This document shows, in pieces, positions 9,221-21,187 of a stretch of DNA of 21,427 nucleotides (position 1 is its first letter; each line of letters opens with the position of its first letter). The position numbers were made by a program, and so were the translations under genes. The notes beneath the pieces are model-generated. The model searched no databases, was not told where the DNA came from, and was given only the letters and a program-made list of their open reading frames with translations. Source of the stretch: a virus; the IMG/VR virus record IMGVR_UViG_3300025151_000359, positions 1 through 21,427 of that record, one strand, 5' to 3'.

Positions 9221-12200
9221 TCAGTACTTTGTCTCTAGATGCTCTATGAAAGAGTTGAACATCATCAGTTCTCGCATACTACTTAAATCCCTAACCTCGT
9301 TCACATCTACCCCACGTTCACGCATCATCTCCATAGCTTTCTGTCGGAGAAACTTATCACCTTTCTGAGATGCTTTATACTTTAATCTCTCGAAGAAGTC
9401 CGTACCTGACGTAGAATCCAAGTAACCACGCACTAACTTTCTAGTAGGGTTAAGGACAAACTCTTTGATCAGCTTTCTACGCTCACCTATGTTAGCCTCT
9501 AAGAATCTTTTATTCTTTATTAGTTTATTCATACGTGTCTCTAACACTGGTGCGATTGTAGTGTTGAAAACCTTGTCGTACTCAGGTATCTTTGTACGCA
9601 TGTCTTGTGTCCAAGATTTCATCTCAGCCATAGAGTACGCTTTCTCTGTAGCTGTGCGGCCTTGCTTGATAGTAAGACCAAAGATTTTAGCCAACGGGTT
9701 AGGGTCGTACACCTCGCCTTCTCTACTGGCTACACGTAACTGCTCCCCCTTGACTGTCTCAATCTCATCAGAAAAAGCACCAAGTATATTATCAAAGTAT
9801 CTTGTTGCAGCTTGAGTAAATATCTTTCCACCTTCAGCTTGCCGTACATCTTTTGAGTAGTCTGTACCGTTTACAAAACCTACTGCTTTATTTACAAAGT
9901 CTAGAGGTCTAGTAACACCTGCAGCAATATTACCACCTGCTTTGAACAACGCTTCTAGTGTATCGTTTTTAGGGTTAGGCATAAAGCTACCATCACTCTC
10001 TTTACCAAAACCCCTAGACATGTAATCACCTACGCTACGCAAGTCATTACCAAACTGTACATCCCTTGCAACCTGTCCTATGGCAAGCTGTTCAGTCATG
10101 TCTGTAAAGTTCTCCTGTGTCGCTTCACCCTTACGAAGCCTATTGAAGTACCTACCTGTAGCTAAGAAAGAAGAAAAGGGGAAGGCGTTCTTAACATCTA
10201 TCTTTGTACCGCCTACACCCTCTACTATATTGTAGTCTAGTCCTTTCTTTTCTTGCTCTTCAGAGAACTGCATTGCAAGAGCTAAAGCACCTGTGCCTAC
10301 AACACCTCTAGACATAGCTTCCATATTACTTATATTACGCTTCTCTGTTTTATATATAGCTCTCATAGAATCTACTAAAGCCAAAGGTGACCACTGATAT
10401 GTTGTAGCTACAACGTTATTCATAAACCTACCAAAGGGTAACACGGTTCCAATCAAGGGTGTGTTAGATATACCTTCAATCAGTTTAGCTGCTCCACGTA
10501 TTAGCTCTGGTTGATCCTTTGTAGTATAGTCTTTAGAAAACACAGAACGCATAGTTGTATCAATAGCTGCACCTACAACATCATCATCAATCAATCCCAT
10601 GTCGTTTGACTTGAGAACATCAGCAAGTGTTCTTTCGTGCTTGAGCCTGAGATACTTATCCATCTCTGTCATAAACATTTGTGACTTAGTAAAGGTGTCT
10701 TGAATACGAACACCAGTGATAGTAGAAGCTGCATTAGTTAGGTTTTCTATACCAAACCTACCGTACAAAAACTTATTGTTCTCACTCATGTTGTATCTTT
10801 TAGATGAGGCTTCTGCAGCATTACCTATAGTTTCAAACAAAAGTTTCTTTGCGTCTTCGTTCTCGTCTAAGTAACGCATATAGACATCGTGGGTAGTCTT
10901 AGCGTCCATAAAGTTACGCATCTTTTGCCCTTGTATGGCACGATACACGTTAGCTTTTTTCATCATCTCTGCAGCTTCTTCAGGATTAGTCAAAGACTTT
11001 GCACCTGCAAGAATACCATACGTAGCAAAACTAAGCATGTCAGCAACAGACTGAAGTATACCATACGTAGCGAAACCTTGTACGTTAGCCATAGTTGTAG
11101 CAGGGGATGAAACAAGTAGACGCTTCCATATACTTTGTCCATAAGCAAAAGGTCTAGCTTTACCAGCTTCAGCAGCTTCCTTACCCATAATCTCCCTAGC
11201 TTCAGCTTGAGCTACGTCATTCACAAGCCTATCATTACCTGCAACTACACCACCATGTAGCGCACGTCTAACCTGCGACATGACTGAAAGAGTGGAACCT
11301 GCTCTACTAATATCTGCAGCAAGAACATCACCTATAGTCATACCTAAATCTGCTGTGTCACTTAGGTCAATATGTATTACCTCTTTGAGAGACTTACTCA
11401 AGTCCTGTAAGTCTTCTTGTGGCATGTAGCGTATTACATTAGTCATAATGTCTGACACAAGTGTGTTTCTTTTAGGGTGTACACCGTTGTCTTTTAGTAG
11501 CTTAACTAATCCACCTATCTCATCAGGCTTATCGCCTAACATGATAGTTTTTAGTAAGCTCTCAGGTACAGCAAGGTTCTCTAGCTTTCTACCGCCACGC
11601 TCTACCTTGTCTACCCAATTAGTAAAGTTCTTTTTGATAATCTTAGTAGCTTCTTTTTGTGCTTCTGGTCTAAGCAAAGGCTTATCCATAGTTTTACTTT
11701 TAGCTACGCCTATCTTAGCTAGTATATCTTTGTACTCTACACTGTCCTCGCCAAACTCTTCAGCAGCTTTAGCTAAACGATCTTCTAAGTTAGCTATCTG
11801 ATTCAGGGTTTTTTTATGTGGGTGGTCTTCTACAAAACGCTTGATGTCAAACGTATCCATAGCCTCGCCTAGCTTACCTGTACCCTTCAAAGCCTGACCT
11901 GTTAAGTGGAACGCACCACCCACACCACCAAGTAAACCTGATAGAATGGTTTCAGTTCTACTATACTTCTCTTGTGCGCCAACGTCAATGTAAAGGCTTT
12001 GTATAGCATCAGCTTGCACCATAGATATGATAGCATCTGCAGAGGTTGTACCTAGTAGCCCGTATATACCCCCGATACGCTCTCTCTTTTTAAGTACATC
12101 TTTCTTAGCTTGCGCACCAGCCTGTGCAAGCACCTCTCGCCTTGCCCTTATAGCTGCAGCATTGACTGCCTCACTAGATATTCTAGAGTTAGCACCGTAA

Positions 12201-12859
12201 GTTACCATCTTCTTTGTCATGGCCTCTGCAGCTTCAGTACCTGCCTTCTTAGCGGCTTCTTTAGTTGCACCATTCAGCATAGCTCTTTTAGCAGCCTTGT
12301 CTGCTGCCGACTTTAGCGCAGCTTTACTGGATGAGGTAACACCCATAGCTGCAGCCTTACCTACACCGCCAGTAAGAGCACCAATGTAATTTGTAGGGTC
12401 TGTTACTGCAGCAAACACATAATCCTTCACACCGTCTACTGCACCGTACAAACCATCGTTAGTCCACATGCTTTCTAAGCTATCATACAGATCGTATGCT
12501 TCCTTTGCAGCCTTCTTATCTAAGTCATCTCCTTTAGATATAAACATGACTTCACCTGCAGTAGACACGGTGTTGGTATTGAACCAACGCATGTGATCTA
12601 CAAAATCTTCTACAAGTTTCTCGTCTTCTACATCTTCGTAGTCAACACCTTTGTTACGTGTCATGTATTCACGAATGATGTTTTTATTTCTGTAGCTGTA
12701 GAGGTCTTTCTTTTTTAGTTTAGTCTTTGTAGCTTCTTCGTCTTTGTCAAACAACTCTTCTCCACCAACACGGGTAGGTGTTGTGTTGCGCTCAGCTTTA
12801 CCTGCAGACCTAACAAAGTCACGTCCTGTTGTTTCTTTATAAAACTCTTGAAATGTCAT
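9221..12859 (-). CDS. Large internal virion / DNA-ejection protein (T7 gp16-like by size and position)
   Basis: This encodes 1212 residues with no cysteine-rich or classical enzyme motif visible. The N-terminus (MTFQEFYKETTGRDF) is soluble and charged to about residue 135. A long Ala/Lys-rich helical region follows at about 165-265, then glycine-rich hydrophobic stretches (IGGIYGLLGTTSADAIISMV near 263-282, LSGLLGGVGGAFHL near 305-320). Near 590-645 are more hydrophobic helices, including a duplicated FATYGIL. This mix of amphipathic and membrane-competent helices, and a length near T7 gp16 (1318 aa), fits a core protein injected into the host envelope with the genome. T7 gp16's lytic transglycosylase domain is not seen; a lysozyme-like domain is instead in the 475-aa protein upstream. 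It is the last gene of the - strand block and ends beside the terminator. Function is inference. Confidence 0.85.
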   Translation of the reverse strand: MTFQEFYKETTGRDFVRSAGKAERNTTPTRVGGEELFDKDEEATKTKLKKKDLYSYRNKNIIREYMTRNKGVDYEDVEDEKLVEDFVDHMRWFNTNTVSTAGEVMFISKGDDLDKKAAKEAYDLYDSLESMWTNDGLYGAVDGVKDYVFAAVTDPTNYIGALTGGVGKAAAMGVTSSSKAALKSAADKAAKRAMLNGATKEAAKKAGTEAAEAMTKKMVTYGANSRISSEAVNAAAIRARREVLAQAGAQAKKDVLKKRERIGGIYGLLGTTSADAIISMVQADAIQSLYIDVGAQEKYSRTETILSGLLGGVGGAFHLTGQALKGTGKLGEAMDTFDIKRFVEDHPHKKTLNQIANLEDRLAKAAEEFGEDSVEYKDILAKIGVAKSKTMDKPLLRPEAQKEATKIIKKNFTNWVDKVERGGRKLENLAVPESLLKTIMLGDKPDEIGGLVKLLKDNGVHPKRNTLVSDIMTNVIRYMPQEDLQDLSKSLKEVIHIDLSDTADLGMTIGDVLAADISRAGSTLSVMSQVRRALHGGVVAGNDRLVNDVAQAEAREIMGKEAAEAGKARPFAYGQSIWKRLLVSSPATTMANVQGFATYGILQSVADMLSFATYGILAGAKSLTNPEEAAEMMKKANVYRAIQGQKMRNFMDAKTTHDVYMRYLDENEDAKKLLFETIGNAAEASSKRYNMSENNKFLYGRFGIENLTNAASTITGVRIQDTFTKSQMFMTEMDKYLRLKHERTLADVLKSNDMGLIDDDVVGAAIDTTMRSVFSKDYTTKDQPELIRGAAKLIEGISNTPLIGTVLPFGRFMNNVVATTYQWSPLALVDSMRAIYKTEKRNISNMEAMSRGVVGTGALALAMQFSEEQEKKGLDYNIVEGVGGTKIDVKNAFPFSSFLATGRYFNRLRKGEATQENFTDMTEQLAIGQVARDVQFGNDLRSVGDYMSRGFGKESDGSFMPNPKNDTLEALFKAGGNIAAGVTRPLDFVNKAVGFVNGTDYSKDVRQAEGGKIFTQAATRYFDNILGAFSDEIETVKGEQLRVASREGEVYDPNPLAKIFGLTIKQGRTATEKAYSMAEMKSWTQDMRTKIPEYDKVFNTTIAPVLETRMNKLIKNKRFLEANIGERRKLIKEFVLNPTRKLVRGYLDSTSGTDFFERLKYKASQKGDKFLRQKAMEMMRERGVDVNEVRDLSSMRELMMFNSFIEHLETKY
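11013..11076 (-). repeat. Short direct repeat encoding a duplicated FATYGIL segment
   Basis: The 19-base word ATACCATACGTAGC(A/G)AAAC occurs at 11013-11031 and 11058-11076, differing at one base and spaced 45 bases apart, exactly 15 codons. It encodes FATYGIL twice in the hydrophobic part of the 1212-residue protein. The high DNA identity suggests recent duplication or constraint on both helices. Confidence 0.8.
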
Positions 12860-12873
12860 ACTTATCTACCGTT

Positions 12874-14802
12874 TTATTGTGTTTGTTCTATTAGGTTTTT
12901 AAGAATAAGGTCAGTCAAAGACGGGCTTATGTTGTTCTGTTTTGCCCAGCGCTTAAACGCAGATGGTAAACTTTTAGGGTTCTTCCTTTGAAAGTCCGTT
13001 ATAGTAGTAGACCAGTTGTTTATTATCTCAACAGGGTCTTGCTCTACTACATCGTCAGGTTCCTCTACTACTAAAGATTTACGGGCATCACCCATAGGTG
13101 TGAAGTCTCTCTCAAGAGCGCTTGCTGATTTTTCCTTGTAGTCTTTATCGGGGTCAGTATCCTCTTTAATAGTTACGTTTGTTCCTATTTGTGCTTCAGG
13201 TATAGCTGATAGGTCTTCACCCCTTACTCTAAACGTACCTATCTTACCTCTTATTTTTATGAGATACGTTTCATTTGTAGGGTTAGAGTACATATCTAAT
13301 GAAGTTGTTACATCTGGTTTTTCTACTAACGATTCTAGAGTGTCTTCAGCTATAGCGTCTGCAGTATCTTCTACTGGTAAAGGATAACCTGTAGCAGGAT
13401 CATGCGTTTCTCCATATTTTTGCATCCATTTCTCAGAAGGTGATTTAGCTGCAGGGCCACGCAGCATAGGCTGTCTTTCACTAGAATCACTTTCTGACGG
13501 CATTGGAGTAACTATAATAGGTGTGCCATCGTTATTGTATTTACCTTTATACTTTTTATCCCATGCTTTCTTTAGAGCGAAATCTTGCTTAGCTGTAGGT
13601 CTTTTTTCTACAGTCTTTGGTGTATCTGCTAGAGTAGTTACATCTATTTCAGGTTGTGCTCCACTTGCTGTTATAGGCGGTTCTGTTTCTGGCGCACTAT
13701 CTATAAGCGTTGCATGGTTTTTATATAAGCCTCTTTCTTTAGCTGTTTCTAAAGCATCTTCTAGCATATTGTTTGGTATAGTTCTTCCGTTAAGAGAACC
13801 CGAAACAGGTATACCGTTTTCATCAAAGGTAAACTTATATGTTTCTTCATTACCTTCAGCATCTGTAAAGGTTTGAGGTTGGCCTATCTCTTCATTAATA
13901 ACAGCGTTAATATTGGCTATGGTTTCATTCTGAGGGTCTTCTAGATCAATAAAGGAATGATATATTTCAGGGTAATCTTTTGCAATGTCTATATCTAAAG
14001 TTTTGTCCTTTAAGAAAGACTTACCCCACGGTGCTGAAGCGTATCTACGGATTAGCTTTTCTGTTATTCTCTTTTTTTCTTGTTCAAAGGCTTCTGGGTC
14101 TACCTGAATAGATTCAGGGATGTCGGCGATATCCGCTTTTAGCTCTGCATCAAATTCCCCTGCAATCTTAACTGAGTTGTAAGACACACCACCAAACGTA
14201 GCGTAGGCACCCGGCACTAAACTCTCGTAGGCTTCCTGAGATGCTAGTGTGTTAAGGTCCATGATAGAGTACCCCTCAAAGTAGGGGTCTTTATCTAAGT
14301 CTGCTCGTGCTATATCCTTAGCACCAAAACCAAGAATCTCACCAATGAAAGGCACGTCTGGTCGTGTCTCGCTTCCTGTCGTAGGCTTGGCTAAACCATA
14401 TGACTGTCTGATAAACGAGTCAAGCGTAAAATCCTCACCCAAATCTTCTTTCATTAACTCAGGTGTTTCTATAAGAGAGTCAATCTCAGTCTGTGTAAAT
14501 TTTGTCTTGTTTTGTTTTTTAGCGTAGTCAATAACTTCATCAGCAAATGTAAACAAAGCATCAGGCCCAGACGCTACAGCAGCAGCTATCTGTTCATCTG
14601 TAACACCAAGCCTACTTAACTGACTAGCTTTACCTACCGCAAGATTAGCTAAGGCTTTACGTTTTTGTATCTGTAACTTAGACTTATCAGCTTTGTCTTT
14701 CTGTTTATCTTTGTAGTCTTTTGCTTCCTTTAGCCGTTCATCAATACGTTTAGCGGTTTCATTCATAAAACCAGTCTGAAAAGCTTTCCAATTAAATGCC
14801 AT
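12874..14802 (-). CDS. Putative internal virion protein (T7 gp15-like by size and position)
   Basis: This encodes 642 residues that I cannot assign to a family by motif. The first ~50 residues are a Lys-rich helix (KRIDERLKEAKDYKDKQKDK). A helical and mixed domain follows to about 360. A long Pro/Thr/Glu-rich region at about 365-480 (DSAPETEPPITASG, PMPSESDSSERQPM) looks disordered. A beta-rich stretch YLIKIRGKIGTFRVRGEDL near 515-535 and a short helical C-terminus complete it. It lies between the 203- and 1212-residue genes with gaps of 4 and 14 bases, in the same order as T7 genes 14-15-16, where gp15 (747 aa) forms the middle part of the ejection tube. A virion-internal role is inferred from order and size only. 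Confidence 0.82.
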   Translation of the reverse strand: MAFNWKAFQTGFMNETAKRIDERLKEAKDYKDKQKDKADKSKLQIQKRKALANLAVGKASQLSRLGVTDEQIAAAVASGPDALFTFADEVIDYAKKQNKTKFTQTEIDSLIETPELMKEDLGEDFTLDSFIRQSYGLAKPTTGSETRPDVPFIGEILGFGAKDIARADLDKDPYFEGYSIMDLNTLASQEAYESLVPGAYATFGGVSYNSVKIAGEFDAELKADIADIPESIQVDPEAFEQEKKRITEKLIRRYASAPWGKSFLKDKTLDIDIAKDYPEIYHSFIDLEDPQNETIANINAVINEEIGQPQTFTDAEGNEETYKFTFDENGIPVSGSLNGRTIPNNMLEDALETAKERGLYKNHATLIDSAPETEPPITASGAQPEIDVTTLADTPKTVEKRPTAKQDFALKKAWDKKYKGKYNNDGTPIIVTPMPSESDSSERQPMLRGPAAKSPSEKWMQKYGETHDPATGYPLPVEDTADAIAEDTLESLVEKPDVTTSLDMYSNPTNETYLIKIRGKIGTFRVRGEDLSAIPEAQIGTNVTIKEDTDPDKDYKEKSASALERDFTPMGDARKSLVVEEPDDVVEQDPVEIINNWSTTITDFQRKNPKSLPSAFKRWAKQNNISPSLTDLILKNLIEQTQ

Positions 14803-14806
14803 TTAT

Positions 14807-15418
14807 TTACCCTCTCGCCATAAGCCCTTGCCCTTGCGGTTCAGCAGGGGGTTGCTCCATATTTGCATCTTGTAAGTCTACAGCCTCAGGTGGTTGCTCC
14901 TCTGCAGCAGCTTCTTCCGCTTCTTCTCTTGTCATATCAGTCTCTAAGTAGTCAGACATCTGTTGTAAGACTTCTGTACCTTTATCTACTGTGCCTTCTT
15001 TTTTAGCTTTTTCGATTGCACCAGATATAAGCAGAGACATACGAGCACGTTCTTTGTCTTCCATTTCTTTTTTAACATCTCTATTAGAGAACTTATACTC
15101 TACCCCGTAGCTATCTGCCACAGCAGCGAAGAACTCCATGAGCGCTGGGGCTACAAGAAGTCCTATATCTAAGCTGTGAACACCTCGCATTACGGAAGAC
15201 ATATACAAAGACTCCACCATAGGTTTGACTGCTACGCCTGACTCAAGAGCAATCATAAAGTCATCCATAATCTCATCATCTGCTAGACTATTCATATAGA
15301 ATGATAAGGTATCCTCTACAGAGTTTAACTGTGGTGGGCGTTCCCAAGCCCTTTCTCCGGGTTTACCTGACGCCAGAGACTGACCCGGTAGTGGTTGTTT
15401 TAAAGTAGATACTTCCAT
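14807..15418 (-). CDS. Putative small internal virion protein (T7 gp14-like by size and position)
   Basis: This encodes 203 residues. The N-terminus is Pro/Gly-rich (LKQPLPGQSLASGKPGERAW). A central helical domain follows at about 33-115, with a moderately hydrophobic segment (SLDIGLLVAPALMEFFAAVA). After it come a charged helix and a disordered acidic and Pro/Gln-rich tail (EEAEEAAAEEQPPEAV, QPPAEPQGQG). No membrane span is strong enough to call with confidence. The length is close to T7 gp14 (196 aa), and the next two downstream genes resemble gp15 and gp16 in size, so it may be the first member of an ejection-protein trio. A SNARE-like or scaffold role cannot be excluded. A Shine-Dalgarno AGGAA lies upstream on the - strand. 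Family not recognised. Confidence 0.82.
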   Translation of the reverse strand: MEVSTLKQPLPGQSLASGKPGERAWERPPQLNSVEDTLSFYMNSLADDEIMDDFMIALESGVAVKPMVESLYMSSVMRGVHSLDIGLLVAPALMEFFAAVADSYGVEYKFSNRDVKKEMEDKERARMSLLISGAIEKAKKEGTVDKGTEVLQQMSDYLETDMTREEAEEAAAEEQPPEAVDLQDANMEQPPAEPQGQGLMARG

Positions 15419-15429
15419 TACTTTTTTTC

Positions 15430-15873
15430 CTACTTAGTAAACCCTGCACCAAAGTACAGGCCTACGATTGCTGATACTATATGTGTGTCTAGTGGTGTGA
15501 TTACAAAGCCCTGCGCTACCTTCCACTGTATTGCTTCATCTGGTCCAAACAACCAGTTAAGGAAACCGCCTGTAGCTTCTGTGTATCCTACGTAAACACC
15601 AACTTCAGGATACCACACAGCGACTAGCTTTGGCAAGACAATAATGCTGAACACTGCAGATAATGCTATGATCCTACGTGTCCAAGCAAAGTGCTTATCG
15701 TTCTTTCCTGCATCCCTAGCTGCATTGACTTGATCTGCTCTGAACTGTGCGTTGGCGAGCATCATCTTGTTCTGCTCTTGGCGGTTCTTCATGCTCTGAC
15801 CCCAGATAGACATGAAGCCGCCTAGTAGGGTGGAGAAGAGCATTGTGATTAGTTCAAGGGGTAAGCCGAACAT
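15430..15873 (-). CDS. Small membrane protein with three predicted spans; candidate holin
   Basis: This encodes 147 residues with three hydrophobic segments: about 5-25 (PLELITMLFSTLLGGFMSIWG), 66-87 (RRIIALSAVFSIIVLPKLVAV) and 127-144 (PLDTHIVSAIVGLYFGAGF). A polar, charged loop (26-65) lies between the first two. Three-span topology, small size and position right after a lysozyme-like gene suggest a holin that releases endolysin. A membrane component of the DNA-ejection machinery is an alternative, because the downstream genes look like internal virion proteins. The loop NRQEQNKMMLANAQFRADQ is helical and could oligomerise. The stop of the upstream lysozyme-like gene directly abuts its ATG. 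The membrane prediction is by eye. Confidence 0.85.
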   Translation of the reverse strand: MFGLPLELITMLFSTLLGGFMSIWGQSMKNRQEQNKMMLANAQFRADQVNAARDAGKNDKHFAWTRRIIALSAVFSIIVLPKLVAVWYPEVGVYVGYTEATGGFLNWLFGPDEAIQWKVAQGFVITPLDTHIVSAIVGLYFGAGFTK

Positions 15874-17301
15874 TTATGTACTACCGTTTTGTGGTATACC
15901 TGCAACTTTATAATTAGCTAAGGGTAATACAGAGGCTACTTCGTCTAGGTTGCTTATAATGCCTGAATAGTAAAGCTCTTTAGCAACCCTATTATCCATA
16001 CCTGCAGTAAAACTTCCAGAATCTTTTCTACGCATATGCTTAGTAAACTCTTTTATGTTTTTGTCTTTTGCAGCTTGAAGAACGGCTGTCCAGTTTCTAC
16101 CTGCCTTCTTACCACCTACGTTGAAAGCTAAGGATGTCAGTGCATTTTTATATTTATAGTCAAGTTCATCCCATGAAATACCAATCTTTTTAAGTTTAGA
16201 ATCCCAACCCTCTTCAATACCTGTATCCCCAGAGAGGTCTTTACGTGCTAAGGATAACTCTGAAGCCATATCCTTATTAAGTATTTCTACCTTTTGAGCC
16301 TCCGTTAAAGCTATGTATGTACCGTCATCCTTTTTAAACGTAATACCATGTATCTTTCCAGAAGCATCTTCTGAATCTTTTACTTTGTGTCCAAAACCCA
16401 CATCCTTACTGCGTTGTGCTATAGGTATATTTTTCTCACGTTTATCATTTGTTGGTTTAGGTACAGAGCCGTGATCTGACTCTGCTTTTTTACCCATATC
16501 TAAGTAAAACTGTAAGGTTTTTTCTTTAATAGCTTCTTCTATAGGGCTAAAAGTAACGTCATCTACTGTACGAGATTTTTCTGGTGTCTCTCCTTTACTA
16601 TCAAGTCTAGGACTCATCAACCCTTTCCCATCTGAGGGGGCTGCACCTCCATCAGCATTGTCGGTGTCAAGATCAATATCAGTGTCAGTATCGCTAAGGG
16701 TAGTAGCCTCTTCATTATCTAACTCCTCAGGCTCATCTATAAGAGCCTTATCTTTTTTTACAGCCTCTATCAAATCTAGCACGTTAAAACCCATTTGAGG
16801 TAAGCTACGTGGTAGAGACTTAGTTATACCCATTTCCATACGCTCAAGTGCGGCTTCCTCTGCTGATTGCCTAGCCAACTCTTCCATACGATCTAGAAAA
16901 TTTTCTGAGTGGTCGCCTCTGTTTCTGATTTTGATAGTGCTTCTTTCAGGGCTGTAATCCCTCAAGTTACGAGCATATACGTACAAAGGAGTGTCGTACC
17001 TATTATGCAGTGTCTCAGAGTTTACCATAACGTCAGTTATTTCAGGTGCATCTTTCTCGCTATACCTAATGTTATTAGTGTCTTCTGCTTCCTCTGACAA
17101 GCGAAGTATAAACTCTTTTATCCTATCTCTTGCTTTAGGTTTGGCATCCTGTTCTTCTTGTTGTGCTTCTACAGAGGTACGTGTTCCGGGTAAGCTGGAC
17201 ATCAAACCTGTACTTGTTGCTTTCTCTTCCTCAGGCTTATCACCAGAGACAATGTTAGAAAGCATGTCACTTATAAGATTCTTTACGGTAGTATCTTCCA
17301 T
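15874..17301 (-). CDS. Virion/lysis protein with C-terminal GH24 (T4-type) lysozyme-like domain
   Basis: This encodes 475 residues. The first ~270 are acidic and largely disordered, with an Asp/Thr alternating run at 204-215 (DTDTDIDLDTD). The C-terminal ~180 show the GH24 muramidase pattern: GFGHK at 302-306, ALTEAQKVEILNKDM at 331-345, ALTSLAFNVGG at 387-397 (cf. ALxSFxFNVG in many endolysins) and a terminal GMDNRVAKELYYSG at 434-447. This fold cleaves peptidoglycan, either for lysis or to open the wall during DNA entry. The long N-terminal extension and location among structural genes favour a virion-associated enzyme. The canonical E-8x-D-5x-T catalytic spacing before GFGH is not evident: Asp300 replaces the usual Thr and no matching Glu is at the expected distance. 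It may be diverged or inactive. The next gene abuts it directly, and a holin-like protein follows. Confidence 0.85.
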   Translation of the reverse strand: MEDTTVKNLISDMLSNIVSGDKPEEEKATSTGLMSSLPGTRTSVEAQQEEQDAKPKARDRIKEFILRLSEEAEDTNNIRYSEKDAPEITDVMVNSETLHNRYDTPLYVYARNLRDYSPERSTIKIRNRGDHSENFLDRMEELARQSAEEAALERMEMGITKSLPRSLPQMGFNVLDLIEAVKKDKALIDEPEELDNEEATTLSDTDTDIDLDTDNADGGAAPSDGKGLMSPRLDSKGETPEKSRTVDDVTFSPIEEAIKEKTLQFYLDMGKKAESDHGSVPKPTNDKREKNIPIAQRSKDVGFGHKVKDSEDASGKIHGITFKKDDGTYIALTEAQKVEILNKDMASELSLARKDLSGDTGIEEGWDSKLKKIGISWDELDYKYKNALTSLAFNVGGKKAGRNWTAVLQAAKDKNIKEFTKHMRRKDSGSFTAGMDNRVAKELYYSGIISNLDEVASVLPLANYKVAGIPQNGST

Positions 17302-17314
17302 GTCTTACTTATCC

Positions 17315-20300
17315 TTATTCAAATACTTTACCAAGAACAGCATCAAAAACCTTGCCCAGTAAGTTACCTGCAGACTTACCTCTTTCTGTTTCTTCTGCAT
17401 TGTCTGCTCTAACTTTTTCTATCACAAGCTGATTGTCTCTTTCTAGCTGGTTATTCGCTGCTCTCCAAGCAAAGTCCATCAAGTCACGCTCTTGTTGCCA
17501 CAACTCAGCTAAACCCTGCAAGGTCAGGCTGTTCTGCGCCATAACCTCTGCCATGTTAGCCTCATTGAGTGCAGCAGTATTAGCTGTAGCAATAGTCTGT
17601 CGCCACACGGTGTTAGCTTGTGCAATAACCAGTTCGTTCTGTGCGTTAAACATATCACGCTGATTGTCAAGTTCAGCTTGGAACTTAGTCATGGTGTTCT
17701 CTTCACCTGCGTTGAACTGCTCCATAGCATTAGACTGCGCTACGTTAAACTGGTTAATCTGAGTTGCCATACTGTCATAGAACTGATTAACTTGGTTAAT
17801 ACTTTCAGCGTTAAACTGTAGTTGTGCATTCTCTGCAGCTTGGTCTGAGAATATACTCTGTACAAGAGACTGCGCCTCAAACATAACAGCCTGTTGCTCG
17901 TTGTCTAGGTTAGCCATATCCACCTGCAAGAAGGCCTGTGCTTGCTGAGCCTGTGCTTGTTGTCTGTTGTTGAGGTTAGCCATGTCAACATCTGTGAGTG
18001 CAGCACAGTCAGCTAATAGTTTAGCTTGCTCATTATTGAGGTTAGCCAAGTCTACGGACATAGCCATCTCAGAGTTACGCAGTGCTCTTGTCTGCGACTC
18101 TGTAAAGTTCATGTTAGCAATCTCAGCAATACGCTCAGACTTAATTACAGCAACCTGTTGTTTGTTTGTAAGCTCCTGCCCTTTCATTGCAGCTTCGATC
18201 TGGGCGTTAGCTAGAGCAGTAGCTTGACGATTAGAAAGGTCAGCCATATCAACAGTCATCTTGTTAGACATGTTGAAGATAGCTGTCTGTTGCTCGTTGT
18301 TAAGTTCTATCTCACGCTCAGACATTTGATTAGAGATATTGAAAAGAGCAGTCTGTTGTCTGTTATCTAGGACACGACCTTCCATAGCTGCACGAGCAAC
18401 AGCGTCTTGGATAAACGCTTGCTGTCTGTTTGTAGCGTCCTGCATGTTTGTTTCAAATGCTTGGGTGCTCTCAATCACAGCCATCTGCTGATCATTAGTC
18501 AACTCTTGGCCCATCATTGCAGCTTTAACTTGTAGGTTAGATAAGGCAGTCTGCTGTGCGTTTGACAGGTTAGCCATCTCTACTTCTAAGTTTTGGCTGG
18601 ACTTCAAGATAGATGTCTGTTGTCTGTTAGTAAGGTTGATGTCATTTACTGCAGCATATCGTGCAGCATTTGCGATAGCTACGTTAGCGCTAATGTCAAG
18701 CTCTTGGCCTAGTAATGCAGCCTTAAACTGTGCAGTAGCAAGCACGGCCTCTTGTTCGTTTGACAAGTTCTTTAGTTGAAGGTTGGCATTATTCATGCTG
18801 TTTTGGATACGTACAGCCTGTTCGTTGGATAGGTTAGTCAACTCAAAGTTCTGTGCAGCAGCAGCATTAGCTAAAGCTACGGCCTGTTCATTACGAACAT
18901 TCTCCATATCCATTGCAGCAAAGGTAGCAGCATCAGATTGTGCGATAGGGATAGACGCTTCCATAGCGGCTTGTACGATTGCAGCACCTGCCATAGAGCT
19001 ACCAGCTAAACCACGAGCAGCCATAGCCGCATTAGCTTTACGTAAAGCACCTGCAGCCCACGGTGGCGTACCATCGTCAAACTGCTTCATAAGTTTTTCC
19101 ATTTGATACGCAACAGTAGAAGAGGCAGACACCTCGCCCTTTACAGCCTTAGCTTCTAGCTGTTGTGTAAACGTAGCAGTTGCAGCCTTTGCAGTAGAGG
19201 CTTCGTTAAGAGCTTCCAATGTCTTAGCTGTGACGATAACTTCTTCATCGTTAAGGATGTCATTTACATCAGCTAGTTCATCATCACTAACAGTTGTTTG
19301 TTCTGCTGTTACGTCAGGTACAAACTCAGACTTCTTTTCATCTGCAGTTGCATACTCATCAAAATTAGCAGCATCTTCTACCTTACTCTTTTCTACTTCT
19401 GCAACTTGAGAGGGTGGTAGGTTGTAGTCTACTTTAGCTTCTGCTTCTGGCGTTGTAGTTTCAAACTTGGCAGGGTCAATCTTTTCTACCTCACCCTCAA
19501 AGGTAACATCAGGTGCTGTCGTATATTTATCAAAGAGTGCCGCATCTGGTTGTTCGCCATCTTGTAAGCTACGAACTACCTTTGTTACTTCACGAATAAT
19601 ATCTAGTGAAGCTGGGTCTTTAAATCTACCTTTAAGCTGCTCTAACTCTTCAGGTTTCATCGTTGCAGCATCCATCAAAGCTTTATCTGATGGTGAACCT
19701 GTAGCTGCAGCAAAGTCAGCCAGTGCTGCTTTAACATCAGCGTTAGACTCTATAGCATCGTATGTTTCTGTAGAATCTTTTACTGCATCCTGTTCAATCT
19801 GAGTTTGCTGTGCTGCATAGTATTCGTCCCTAGCCTTTTCAAGCTCTTCAGGTGGCATCGTTCTACTAGGGTATTCATTAAGAAAGAAGTCTGTAAATGA
19901 CTGATTAGGTTCTTGAAGACCTGTAGCCATACGTAAATACTGAGTGCTATCCCCTACAGTTATCTGACCATCGCCGTCTACATCATACTTAGTTATATCT
20001 TCAGGTGTTAATTTTTCTGTTCCTACAACATGTCGTAATACTTTTTGTGCCAAAAGTGTACCTGCAGCTTTACGCTCTTCTGGTGTACCATCCTCAACAC
20101 TAATATAAGGTTCCGCCTTAGGTATAAACGGTGGATACTTATCATTACGCTCTTCAGGAGTTAAACCTTGAAGATACGCTTTTGATTTCTTAAATACAGG
20201 GTTCTCTACATTATCTGCAGCTTGTGCTTGCTTAACTAAAAGAGTAAGCGCATCAGCTACCTGACCTGTTGTACTATCAATAAGCTGATCATCTTTAACT

Positions 20301-21187
20301 TCCAAGCCGTACACTGTAGGCTGAGCTAGGACAGCACTAGGTGTAGATATAGCTTTACCCAAAGCCTCACCAGTAGAGGGTACGTCTGTAGTCTCAAACC
20401 TTTTCTGGGCTGTGCTTACAGCAGCCTGTGTTTGTGTAACTGAAAGTTCAGCATCTTCTACTGCTTTTTGTAAAGCTTCGTAAGCGTCCTTGTCTGCTTG
20501 CGGTGCATCATCTGCAGGTATAGTTACGCCACTCAAAGCTAGTTGTGCATCTGTAAGAGCGCCCATAGCTGTGCTGTAGGCTTTCTGTGCTTCATCTAAG
20601 GAAGTGGCAGCTTCAGTAACCTCAGGTGTTTCTGTACCTTGCTTTAATATGAAGTCAGGCTTTTGAGTTGTGTCTGGTTGGTCTTCTATTATGGGTCGGC
20701 TTATGGGTCTTTTTTCGGGTATTCTAGTTTCGGGTATTCTAGGTTCCCTATCTATGTCTTTTATTCTAGACACAGGTTTTAAACCAAAGGTAGATTCTAT
20801 ATTTTCTTCTAGTGTCTTTTTATCTATTGGATCGCTTGGCCTACTTTTTAGGCCGCTACGATACGCATAATCTTCATCAGACTCGCCTTCCATCTTACCA
20901 ACGCCAAAAGAAACCCTTGCATCTTTACCGCCACGAGTAGCTCTTTGTCTTTCTTTTTCAACGACACCTGCATTAATCGAACTACCTTCAGCAAAACCTG
21001 TAGGGGCTAAAGGTTCACCTTCTACACGCTGTCTAGCAATATCTGTGTAACGTCCTATCTTTGCAGCAGCACGAGGGCTAGACGCAAGGAACGCATCCAT
21101 TTCATCCTTCTGTGCTGGGCCTGTAAAGCCCATCTCTTTAAGGAGAGTATGTGTTTGCTGATTGGTAAAACCTTTAAACTTTTTCAT
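17315..21187 (-). CDS. Giant repeat-containing structural protein with EF-hand loop and hendecad coiled coil
   Basis: This 1290-residue protein has clear modular structure. Residues 1-190 are polar, with a Pro/Arg segment (PRIPETRIPEKRPISRP, 149-165). Residues 195-265 are Ala/Gln-rich helix. Residues 400-420 contain one dockerin-like EF-hand loop (DVDGDGQITVGD, 402-413). Residues 430-700 are acidic and low-complexity. An Ala-rich hydrophobic stretch (711-760) leads into sixteen consecutive 22-residue repeats (764-1115) with consensus L-[ST]-N-x-Q-Q-x-A-[LIV], without any insertion. These are followed by six 11-residue units with Phe at 1125, 1136, 1147, 1158, 1169 and 1180. The C-terminus ends in an amphipathic helix with two LGKVF copies. 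Periodicities of 11 and 22 fit a long right-handed or straight coiled coil. A virion role (core, ejection tube or fibre) is inferred from position. I recognise no named family. Confidence 0.88.
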   Translation of the reverse strand: MKKFKGFTNQQTHTLLKEMGFTGPAQKDEMDAFLASSPRAAAKIGRYTDIARQRVEGEPLAPTGFAEGSSINAGVVEKERQRATRGGKDARVSFGVGKMEGESDEDYAYRSGLKSRPSDPIDKKTLEENIESTFGLKPVSRIKDIDREPRIPETRIPEKRPISRPIIEDQPDTTQKPDFILKQGTETPEVTEAATSLDEAQKAYSTAMGALTDAQLALSGVTIPADDAPQADKDAYEALQKAVEDAELSVTQTQAAVSTAQKRFETTDVPSTGEALGKAISTPSAVLAQPTVYGLEVKDDQLIDSTTGQVADALTLLVKQAQAADNVENPVFKKSKAYLQGLTPEERNDKYPPFIPKAEPYISVEDGTPEERKAAGTLLAQKVLRHVVGTEKLTPEDITKYDVDGDGQITVGDSTQYLRMATGLQEPNQSFTDFFLNEYPSRTMPPEELEKARDEYYAAQQTQIEQDAVKDSTETYDAIESNADVKAALADFAAATGSPSDKALMDAATMKPEELEQLKGRFKDPASLDIIREVTKVVRSLQDGEQPDAALFDKYTTAPDVTFEGEVEKIDPAKFETTTPEAEAKVDYNLPPSQVAEVEKSKVEDAANFDEYATADEKKSEFVPDVTAEQTTVSDDELADVNDILNDEEVIVTAKTLEALNEASTAKAATATFTQQLEAKAVKGEVSASSTVAYQMEKLMKQFDDGTPPWAAGALRKANAAMAARGLAGSSMAGAAIVQAAMEASIPIAQSDAATFAAMDMENVRNEQAVALANAAAAQNFELTNLSNEQAVRIQNSMNNANLQLKNLSNEQEAVLATAQFKAALLGQELDISANVAIANAARYAAVNDINLTNRQQTSILKSSQNLEVEMANLSNAQQTALSNLQVKAAMMGQELTNDQQMAVIESTQAFETNMQDATNRQQAFIQDAVARAAMEGRVLDNRQQTALFNISNQMSEREIELNNEQQTAIFNMSNKMTVDMADLSNRQATALANAQIEAAMKGQELTNKQQVAVIKSERIAEIANMNFTESQTRALRNSEMAMSVDLANLNNEQAKLLADCAALTDVDMANLNNRQQAQAQQAQAFLQVDMANLDNEQQAVMFEAQSLVQSIFSDQAAENAQLQFNAESINQVNQFYDSMATQINQFNVAQSNAMEQFNAGEENTMTKFQAELDNQRDMFNAQNELVIAQANTVWRQTIATANTAALNEANMAEVMAQNSLTLQGLAELWQQERDLMDFAWRAANNQLERDNQLVIEKVRADNAEETERGKSAGNLLGKVFDAVLGKVFE
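17630..17827 (-). repeat. Six 11-residue (33-bp) hendecad repeats
   Basis: This encodes residues 1121-1186 of the 1290-residue protein. Phe recurs every eleven residues at 1125, 1136, 1147, 1158, 1169 and 1180, usually in a [QKM]-F-[NQ] context (NQFN, EQFN, TKFQ, DMFN). Eleven residues make almost exactly three helical turns, so the Phe side chains would line one face of a long helix. It continues directly from the 22-residue repeats. Confidence 0.8.
17843..18898 (-). repeat. Sixteen tandem 22-residue (66-bp) coding repeats
   Basis: This encodes residues 764-1115 of the 1290-residue protein. Each unit starts with a hydrophobic residue (usually Leu), then usually [ST/N]-N-x-Q-[QA] and Ala four residues later. 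Unit starts fall at 764, 786, 808 and every 22 residues to 1094, with no insertion or deletion. Units ending in a GQE-like sequence alternate with units ending in DMAN-like sequence. The DNA copies are diverged but share words such as GTTGTCTGTT and TTAGCCAT on the + strand. Confidence 0.92.
19949..19984 (-). other. Dockerin-like EF-hand calcium-binding loop in the 1290-residue protein
   Basis: This encodes residues 402-413, DVDGDGQITVGD. Asp402, Asp404, Asp406, Gln408, Thr410 and Asp413 occupy the six EF-hand coordination positions, with the invariant Gly407 and hydrophobic Ile409. Asp at position 12 and the following helix (STQYLRMATG) resemble half of a type I dockerin more than a calmodulin-type EF-hand. 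Confidence 0.8.

Follow-up and report, generated by a model that had tools for sequence, protein, structure and literature searches.

Layout of the Late Gene Cassette

The virus record IMGVR_UViG_3300025151_000359 of IMG/VR, which was analyzed over its full 21,427 bases and is called the window in the following, is a fragment of an HMO-2011-type marine podovirus; its plus-strand helicase, DNA polymerase, and ribonucleotide reductase genes fit the layout of that type. The subject of this report is a block of late genes on the minus strand, where all window features described below are located, which probably includes a set of proteins for DNA ejection. The genes are named R (1290 amino acids), L (475), H (147), C (203), B (642), and A (1212). 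The open reading frames (ORFs) C (positions 14807–15418), B (12874–14802), and A (9221–12859) are transcribed in this order, with intergenic gaps of 4 bases between C and B and 14 bases between B and A. An earlier note made on this DNA had likened a trio of 203, 642, and 1212 residues to gp14, gp15, and gp16 of phage T7, for which it gave 196, 747, and 1318 residues; the ORF list bears out the former sizes and their order, and the T7 record the latter. A, B, and C have no PHROG match at E ≤ 0.01 and no Pfam match over the cut-off, and in the isolate records examined all genes of the trio are annotated “hypothetical protein”.

In a six-frame search with family profiles, covering 187 sequences, the genes are arranged almost throughout as R-(L or small X)-(H)-C-B-A, where X denotes an ORF of 50–130 amino acids that immediately precedes C in cassettes devoid of H. 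The block of the isolate CRP-603 reads R1141-L313-H147-C189-B533-A1152; it follows annotated tail and coat genes and faces the replication genes. Further isolates have the identical order, with H or L absent or substituted. The cassette consists of the late genes that close the structural operon, downstream of the tail genes, the latter being observed in the isolates and lying outside the window itself. The size order C<B<A holds for 118 of 119 complete non-redundant cassettes, which are mutually related and so do not represent independent events; the sole exception, ctQWt234 (locus L013), has a doubtful C call. Lengths in the 119 cassettes are 150–335 amino acids for C and 684–1708 for A, while an ORF of 252–928 amino acids occupies the position of B; B was often missed by its profile, and in such cases the longest ORF located between C and A was accepted. 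The starting profile of A included members placed by position (HTVC104P, Slicky01, MQM1, and CRP-3), whose A-position proteins have no homology to A of the window that is detectable by profile comparison. The order of the trio is not a matter of chance.

Protein A

Residues 13–1212 of A were modeled by AlphaFold2 with 71 sequences as an all-helical protein, at a predicted local distance difference test score (pLDDT) of 77.2 and a predicted template modeling score (pTM) of 0.66. When this model was compared by Foldseek with the viral structure library BFVD, 35 matches were obtained at E ≤ 0.001. Among them are LPD/polyvalent proteins (LPD, large polyvalent-protein-associated domain; E 9e-16, 1.5e-12, and 1.0e-8) as well as internal virion proteins from Eyrgjafa, a Pelagibacter phage (E 7e-8), and from the Synechococcus phages S-CBP3 (E 4e-7) and S-CBP2 (E 2e-5). 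Other named matches are ADP-ribosyltransferase-type polyvalent, MuF C-terminal-domain, nuclease, and EF-hand proteins of phage genomes; the remaining matches are unnamed or uncharacterized. Two of the top three agree in length with CRP-9 gp36 and CRP-13 gp35 (1141 and 1168 amino acids, resp.) and are equated with them on that ground. No tail or capsid protein, which the earlier note had named as a refuting outcome, is found among the named BFVD matches of A. The S-CBP3 match (873 amino acids) corresponds by its length to SYPG_00039, which in a T7-like genome is the fourth gene downstream of that for tail tubular protein B; identified in this way, the S-CBP3 fold kin of A sits in the gp16 region. 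Since the named BFVD matches comprise polyvalent or phage effector-type proteins and internal virion proteins, the view of A as the largest internal or ejection protein, gp16-like at the fold level as well as by position, is supported by the model.

An N-terminal module of A, comprising approximately residues 42–323 (positions 11891–12736), recurs in the large protein of HTVC033P, as seen by hhalign (98.1%, E 9.7e-14). That protein, which is otherwise different from A, carries an LPD38 domain (residues 981–1166, E 1.3e-23) outside the common module. Phage polyvalent proteins are described in PMC5512222 as being packaged and injected with the DNA. The likeness of A to LPD polyvalent proteins thus consists in several matches of its model and in the module common with the LPD38-bearing protein of HTVC033P, whereas A of the window itself has neither an LPD match nor an enzymatic domain in the Pfam scan. 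No hydrolase domain was identified at E ≤ 0.01 in any of the 33 A proteins scanned. Out of seven further A-position proteins that were scanned singly, one has a fused C-terminal lysozyme domain, namely, that of HTVC104P (1638 amino acids, L023:16490-21406); homology of this protein to A was considered and is not detected (profile comparison 0.4%).

Repeat Protein R

R (positions 17315–21187) is a repeat protein, which in its C-terminal half would form a long helical rod. The conserved C-terminal region (residues 672–1290, positions 17318–19174), where repeats are often spaced 22 residues apart, is modeled by AlphaFold2 with helices only, several of them spanning 67–95 residues, at a pLDDT of 69.7 and a pTM of 0.27; because of the latter value, only the helical character of the model is to be trusted. 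The protein is rich in N, Q, and A (fractions of 0.225 for Q+N and 0.031 for P+G). With 47–53% identity of its C-terminal half to most IMG/VR relatives, R is the best conserved part of the cassette. Relatives of R (MQM1 query) and of C (HTVC033P query) occur in the same 27 out of 50,697 phage records, as judged by visual comparison of the two lists; with HMO-2011 and CHOED both represented by two records, the number of phages is 25. The conservation of R and its co-occurrence with C contradict the proposal of the earlier note that the 1290-residue repeat protein would be an extra component. A gp14-like patch of small residues in R was also considered and is unsupported, with a profile probability of 0.6% and no pattern common to T7 gp14, P22 gp7, and the S-CBP3 gene.

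Proteins B and C and the GLM Tag

The middle protein B is fast-evolving; its tblastn matches are confined to CRP-603 and CRP-207 and extend over about one third of its length. The small protein C is conserved and contains an N-terminal PIPGQSL-type motif, a hydrophobic helix region, and a C-terminal tag with the core GLM. Gene order and size are the sole grounds on which C might be equated with gp14 and B, by its position, with gp15. The idea that C is also present in T4-like myoviruses is not supported, the matches falling into the same record group, up to 27.

In the window, the tag near the C-terminus of C reads GLMAR (residues 198–202, positions 14813–14827), and L carries GLMSP (residues 227–231, positions 16609–16623) as well as the tag-like variant GLMSS (residues 32–36, positions 17194–17208), which is outside the counted pattern. 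In nearly all members, C is closed by GLM-[AS]-[RK]. The counted pattern, G[LIVM][ML][ASTGLQ][RKP], is present in 131 of 145 C proteins versus 3.5 in shuffled sequences, always within 10 residues of the end. It is further found in 26 of 46 small X proteins (0.35 expected) and 36 of 75 L proteins (3.45 expected); the corresponding numbers are 15 of 137 for B (6.6) and 0 of 62 for H (1.8). R contains it in 2 of 127 cases, A in 25 of 137, and other ORFs of at least 150 amino acids in 28 of 1117. After clustering, the numbers are 89 of 100 for C, 23 of 38 for X, 30 of 62 for L, and 13 of 106 for B. In L, the tag lies mostly in the linker region and is found in 33 of 50 proteins from cassettes with H versus 3 of 25 without H. 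A first, narrower pattern, chosen after viewing C and some L proteins, had given 130 of 145 for C and 19 of 53 for L; the looser one was chosen after the X sequences had been viewed. The counts describe the tag and do not prove it, because the pattern was defined after the examples and the members are related.

Tag carriers (C, hydrolase-slot proteins, and X) are also present at loci L015, L021, and L112-L186. The gene situated between portal and scaffold genes was considered as a further carrier and discarded, given that the pattern is found in one of six examined (CRP-9 gp54), with CRP-207 gp58 ending in a looser variant. The large proteins encoded between portal and scaffold in CRP-9 (L003:41038-45225) and CRP-207 (L319:5860-8697) have GGLMAKKKKK-like or GGLASKKK-like tails. 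Terminase large subunits contain GIM[ST]RP or GLMARP near the C-terminus, close to the tag pattern (L002:47857-49452, L003:47554-49140, L015:29336-30895, and L018:3-1859).

The GLM tag would most simply be read as a signal for docking or loading, with a cleavage site as an alternative. Carried further, GLM-x-R/K/P might be a common docking or loading signal on the end of C, on the linkers of hydrolases of multiple folds, and on X, the small protein that takes their place, by which tagged hydrolases, freely swapped, would be recruited to the ejection machine; this extended proposal is tentative and less likely than not. A brief literature search found no paper naming such a GLM tag.

The Hydrolase Slot L and the Holin-Like Protein H

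L (positions 15874–17301) consists of a long linker, which bears the GLM tags, and a C-terminal region resembling lysozyme (GH24). Its GH24-like stretch (residues 384–442, positions 15976–16152) matches PF00959 at E 0.015 and 16.1 bits, which is below the cut-off of 22.3 bits; upstream of it, an AESDHG...DVGFGHK pattern is common to six relatives, in addition to the window itself and a duplicate of it (L001). Across relatives, this one gene position (15874–17301 and its equivalents) accommodates peptidoglycan hydrolases of several unrelated folds. Among 55 slot proteins, there are 12 matches to the phage lysozyme family GH24/PF00959 (best E 6.8e-25), 9 to LysM, 8 and 7 to two peptidoglycan-binding families, 7 each to phage tail lysozyme and SLT, 3 to GH19, 2 to cell wall hydrolase, and 1 to GH108, where a single protein may match several families and some match none. 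That L begins with an X-like domain was considered and left open, the best match having E 2.5e-4 and most being weaker.

H (positions 15430–15873) is a hydrophobic, holin-like, modular protein. It matches PHROG 38283, a family of unknown function, at E 2.4e-12 and has no Pfam match over the cut-off, a known holin family not being among its matches; its hydrophobicity and its neighborhood alone suggest that it may act as a holin. H occurs in 26 phage records, many of which are unrelated pelagiphages, where it adjoins an annotated peptidase M15. It is 82–84% identical to its counterparts in CRP-603 and CRP-2 and is also found in unrelated Cobavirus-type roseophages, which points to recent movement between phage groups.

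L may accordingly be a lysis enzyme, because it adjoins a holin-like gene and because no other endolysin was recognized in three isolates. In the latter, CRP-603, CRP-2, and CRP-207, whose cassettes contain L together with H (L of CRP-207 being of the LysM/GH19 type), a genome-wide search for three hydrolase families found none outside L, nor was a hydrolase found in eight other ORFs scanned. CRP-1, CRP-9, and CRP-13, which are devoid of H, have an M15-like ORF elsewhere, with only that of CRP-13 over the cut-off. From this it would be an even bet that L and H make up an ordinary endolysin-holin lysis cassette inserted into the ejection operon, with L not being a virion protein. Against this stand the GLM tag of L, which also ends C, and the long linkers, which are unusual for an endolysin; moreover, CRP-13 contains both an SLT-like L and the separate M15 match, and the genome-wide search was restricted to the three families. 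CRP-207 gp73 (L319:15424-16005), annotated “putative lysozyme”, is a further point on this side, albeit it has no Pfam hydrolase match and only weak matches of coiled-coil type.

The earlier note had held that the peptidoglycan-cutting function of T7 gp16 moved to the gene at 15874–17301. What stands of this is that the 33 A proteins scanned are devoid of a hydrolase domain and that the slot does hold hydrolases in relatives; relocation itself is one of two readings, according to which L would be either a virion hydrolase or an endolysin. The absence of a hydrolase from A needs no relocation, because P22 lacks such a domain anyway.

The Proposed Ejection Cassette and Its Alternatives

R, C, B, and A would most likely represent the internal (ejection, “pilot”) protein cassette of an HMO-2011-type podovirus, at a probability of roughly 0.7. 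The four proteins would be loaded into the head or the tail lumen and exit before the DNA, extending the short tail across the envelope. Upon adsorption, C, R, and B would exit first and form a conduit; R, as a long helical rod, would probably line or form its envelope-spanning part, C, which is small and has a short motif at either end, would serve as an adaptor, and B as a fast-evolving middle component. L would be a swappable supply of peptidoglycan hydrolase, and either L or a host enzyme would open the peptidoglycan. A, a large all-helical protein of gp16 type, would exit last, engage the DNA at the inner membrane, and probably reach that membrane or the cytoplasm with it. The opening of the peptidoglycan and the late exit of A are drawn by analogy with T7 as described in PMC8954989. 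Presence in virions, ejection, and the site of action of each protein are what we infer from the genes and models. The observations themselves comprise the gene order and its conservation, the co-occurrence of R with C, the all-helical models, the fold kinship of A, the variety of L, and the common GLM tag.

Several results weigh against this assignment. Template modeling scores (TM-scores) of A to internal virion proteins are low (0.24–0.45; 0.34/0.45 for S-CBP3), and the fold likeness is therefore to be taken as kinship of parts and not as a close fold match. Among 350,542 PDB chains, nothing was found for the A model below E 0.18 (best Z 7.3 over 43 residues), from which it also follows that helical content alone does not give E-values like those obtained with BFVD. 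T7 gp16 or other ejection proteins did not rise above noise in the PDB fold searches with A and R; neither T7 gp16, whose absence excludes nothing, nor the P22 ejection proteins are listed among the PDB fold matches of A. R has no PDB fold match at E ≤ 0.001, and a cyanophage A4 pre-ejectosome chain matches it at Z 3.4 only, the other matches being common helical arrangements. PDB sequence-profile searches with A, C, and R returned no ejection proteins, and profile comparison with S-CBP3 proteins reached 6.8% at best. When A, B, C, and R were matched against profiles of T7 gp14, gp15, and gp16 and P22 gp7, gp20, and gp16, probabilities did not exceed 1.1%; this comparison is uninformative, because it also misses the accepted T7-P22 functional pairs (control values of at most 0.2%). 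By hydropathy scan, C has one hydrophobic stretch, fewer than the transmembrane helices of gp14, of which four or five have been reported, although the same simple scan finds no segment in T7 gp14. Finally, literature searches found no virion proteomics for the HMO-2011-type group.

Within the proposed ejection cassette, the assignment of roles depends on the reference system chosen. In 14 podoviruses including P22-like ones, gp14-like proteins of 181–240, gp15-like proteins of 431–982, and gp16-like proteins of 609–1337 amino acids are described in the same gene order (PMC8954989), and the sizes found in the 119 cassettes fall within these limits or close to them. Size and order cannot single out T7, because small-medium-large is the general order of podovirus ejection proteins. 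According to Hardies et al. (PMC10386132), a gene for tail-tube B with candidate ejectosome genes behind it is the mark by which ejectosome podoviruses can be recognized. The N4/DEV cassette gp50-gp51-gp52 is described as three co-operonic ejection proteins, small, medium, and large (PMC12633501); the likeness to the present trio is one of description, and N4/DEV differs in that its large protein is a virion RNA polymerase.

It is quite conceivable, if somewhat short of even odds, that the roles are of P22 or cyanophage type, with R as conduit or pore former, C as adaptor, and B and A leaving late. The coat protein of HMO-2011 is annotated as P22-like, P22 gp7-gp20-gp16 are likewise ordered small-medium-large (229, 471, and 609 amino acids), and the largest P22 ejection protein is described in PMC8954989 as having no hydrolase domain, as is the case for A. 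The strong conservation of R, its long helices, and its N/Q/A-rich composition poor in P and G would suit a conduit former. On the other hand, P22 gp16 is half as large as A, a sequence link to P22 is not found (by the test that also misses T7 versus P22), and R has no profile link to gp7, gp14, gp15, or gp20, a weak local score of R with gp14 being at noise level.

Strict equivalence with T7 is unlikely. C would then be the gp14 outer-membrane pore, B the gp15 periplasmic tunnel, and A gp16, with the hydrolase split off into L and R added. Common to both systems are three consecutive late genes of similar sizes, ordered small-medium-large, with a large all-helical last protein, and the position of the S-CBP3 fold kin of A at the place of gp16 in a T7-like cyanophage; that all 33 A proteins are without a hydrolase domain while L has one in many relatives is also in keeping with it. 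The present cassette differs from T7 in that very lack of a hydrolase domain in A, in the fourth conserved component R, which by its occurrence in the records of C is no add-on, and in the terminal motifs of C, which are absent from anything known for gp14; sequence kinship with T7 is not detectable by the above uninformative test. B is poorly conserved and at most putatively tunnel-like, and P22-like phages, in the description of PMC8954989, are without the hydrolase domain with no relocation involved. Of the T7-like ejectosome suggested in the earlier note, there remain a probable ejection cassette and a gp16-type A by fold, while the one-to-one mapping onto T7 is unsupported. It is improbable that the trio would instead act in tail assembly or as a scaffold without being ejected; many neighbors are annotated as tail proteins, but in structure A is akin to internal virion and polyvalent proteins and not to tail or capsid families.

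Significance

The HMO-2011-type phages have been described among the most abundant marine viruses (PMC9038755, PMC6918029). The ejection cassette itself is a known kind of system; the new element is the tag common to C, the hydrolases, and X. Naming the likely ejection cassette of these phages, with R as a core part, provides concrete targets for virion proteomics and cryo-electron microscopy. The common tag, if functional, would give an initial glimpse of a way in which interchangeable hydrolases or adaptors might be recruited to the ejection machine of podoviruses.

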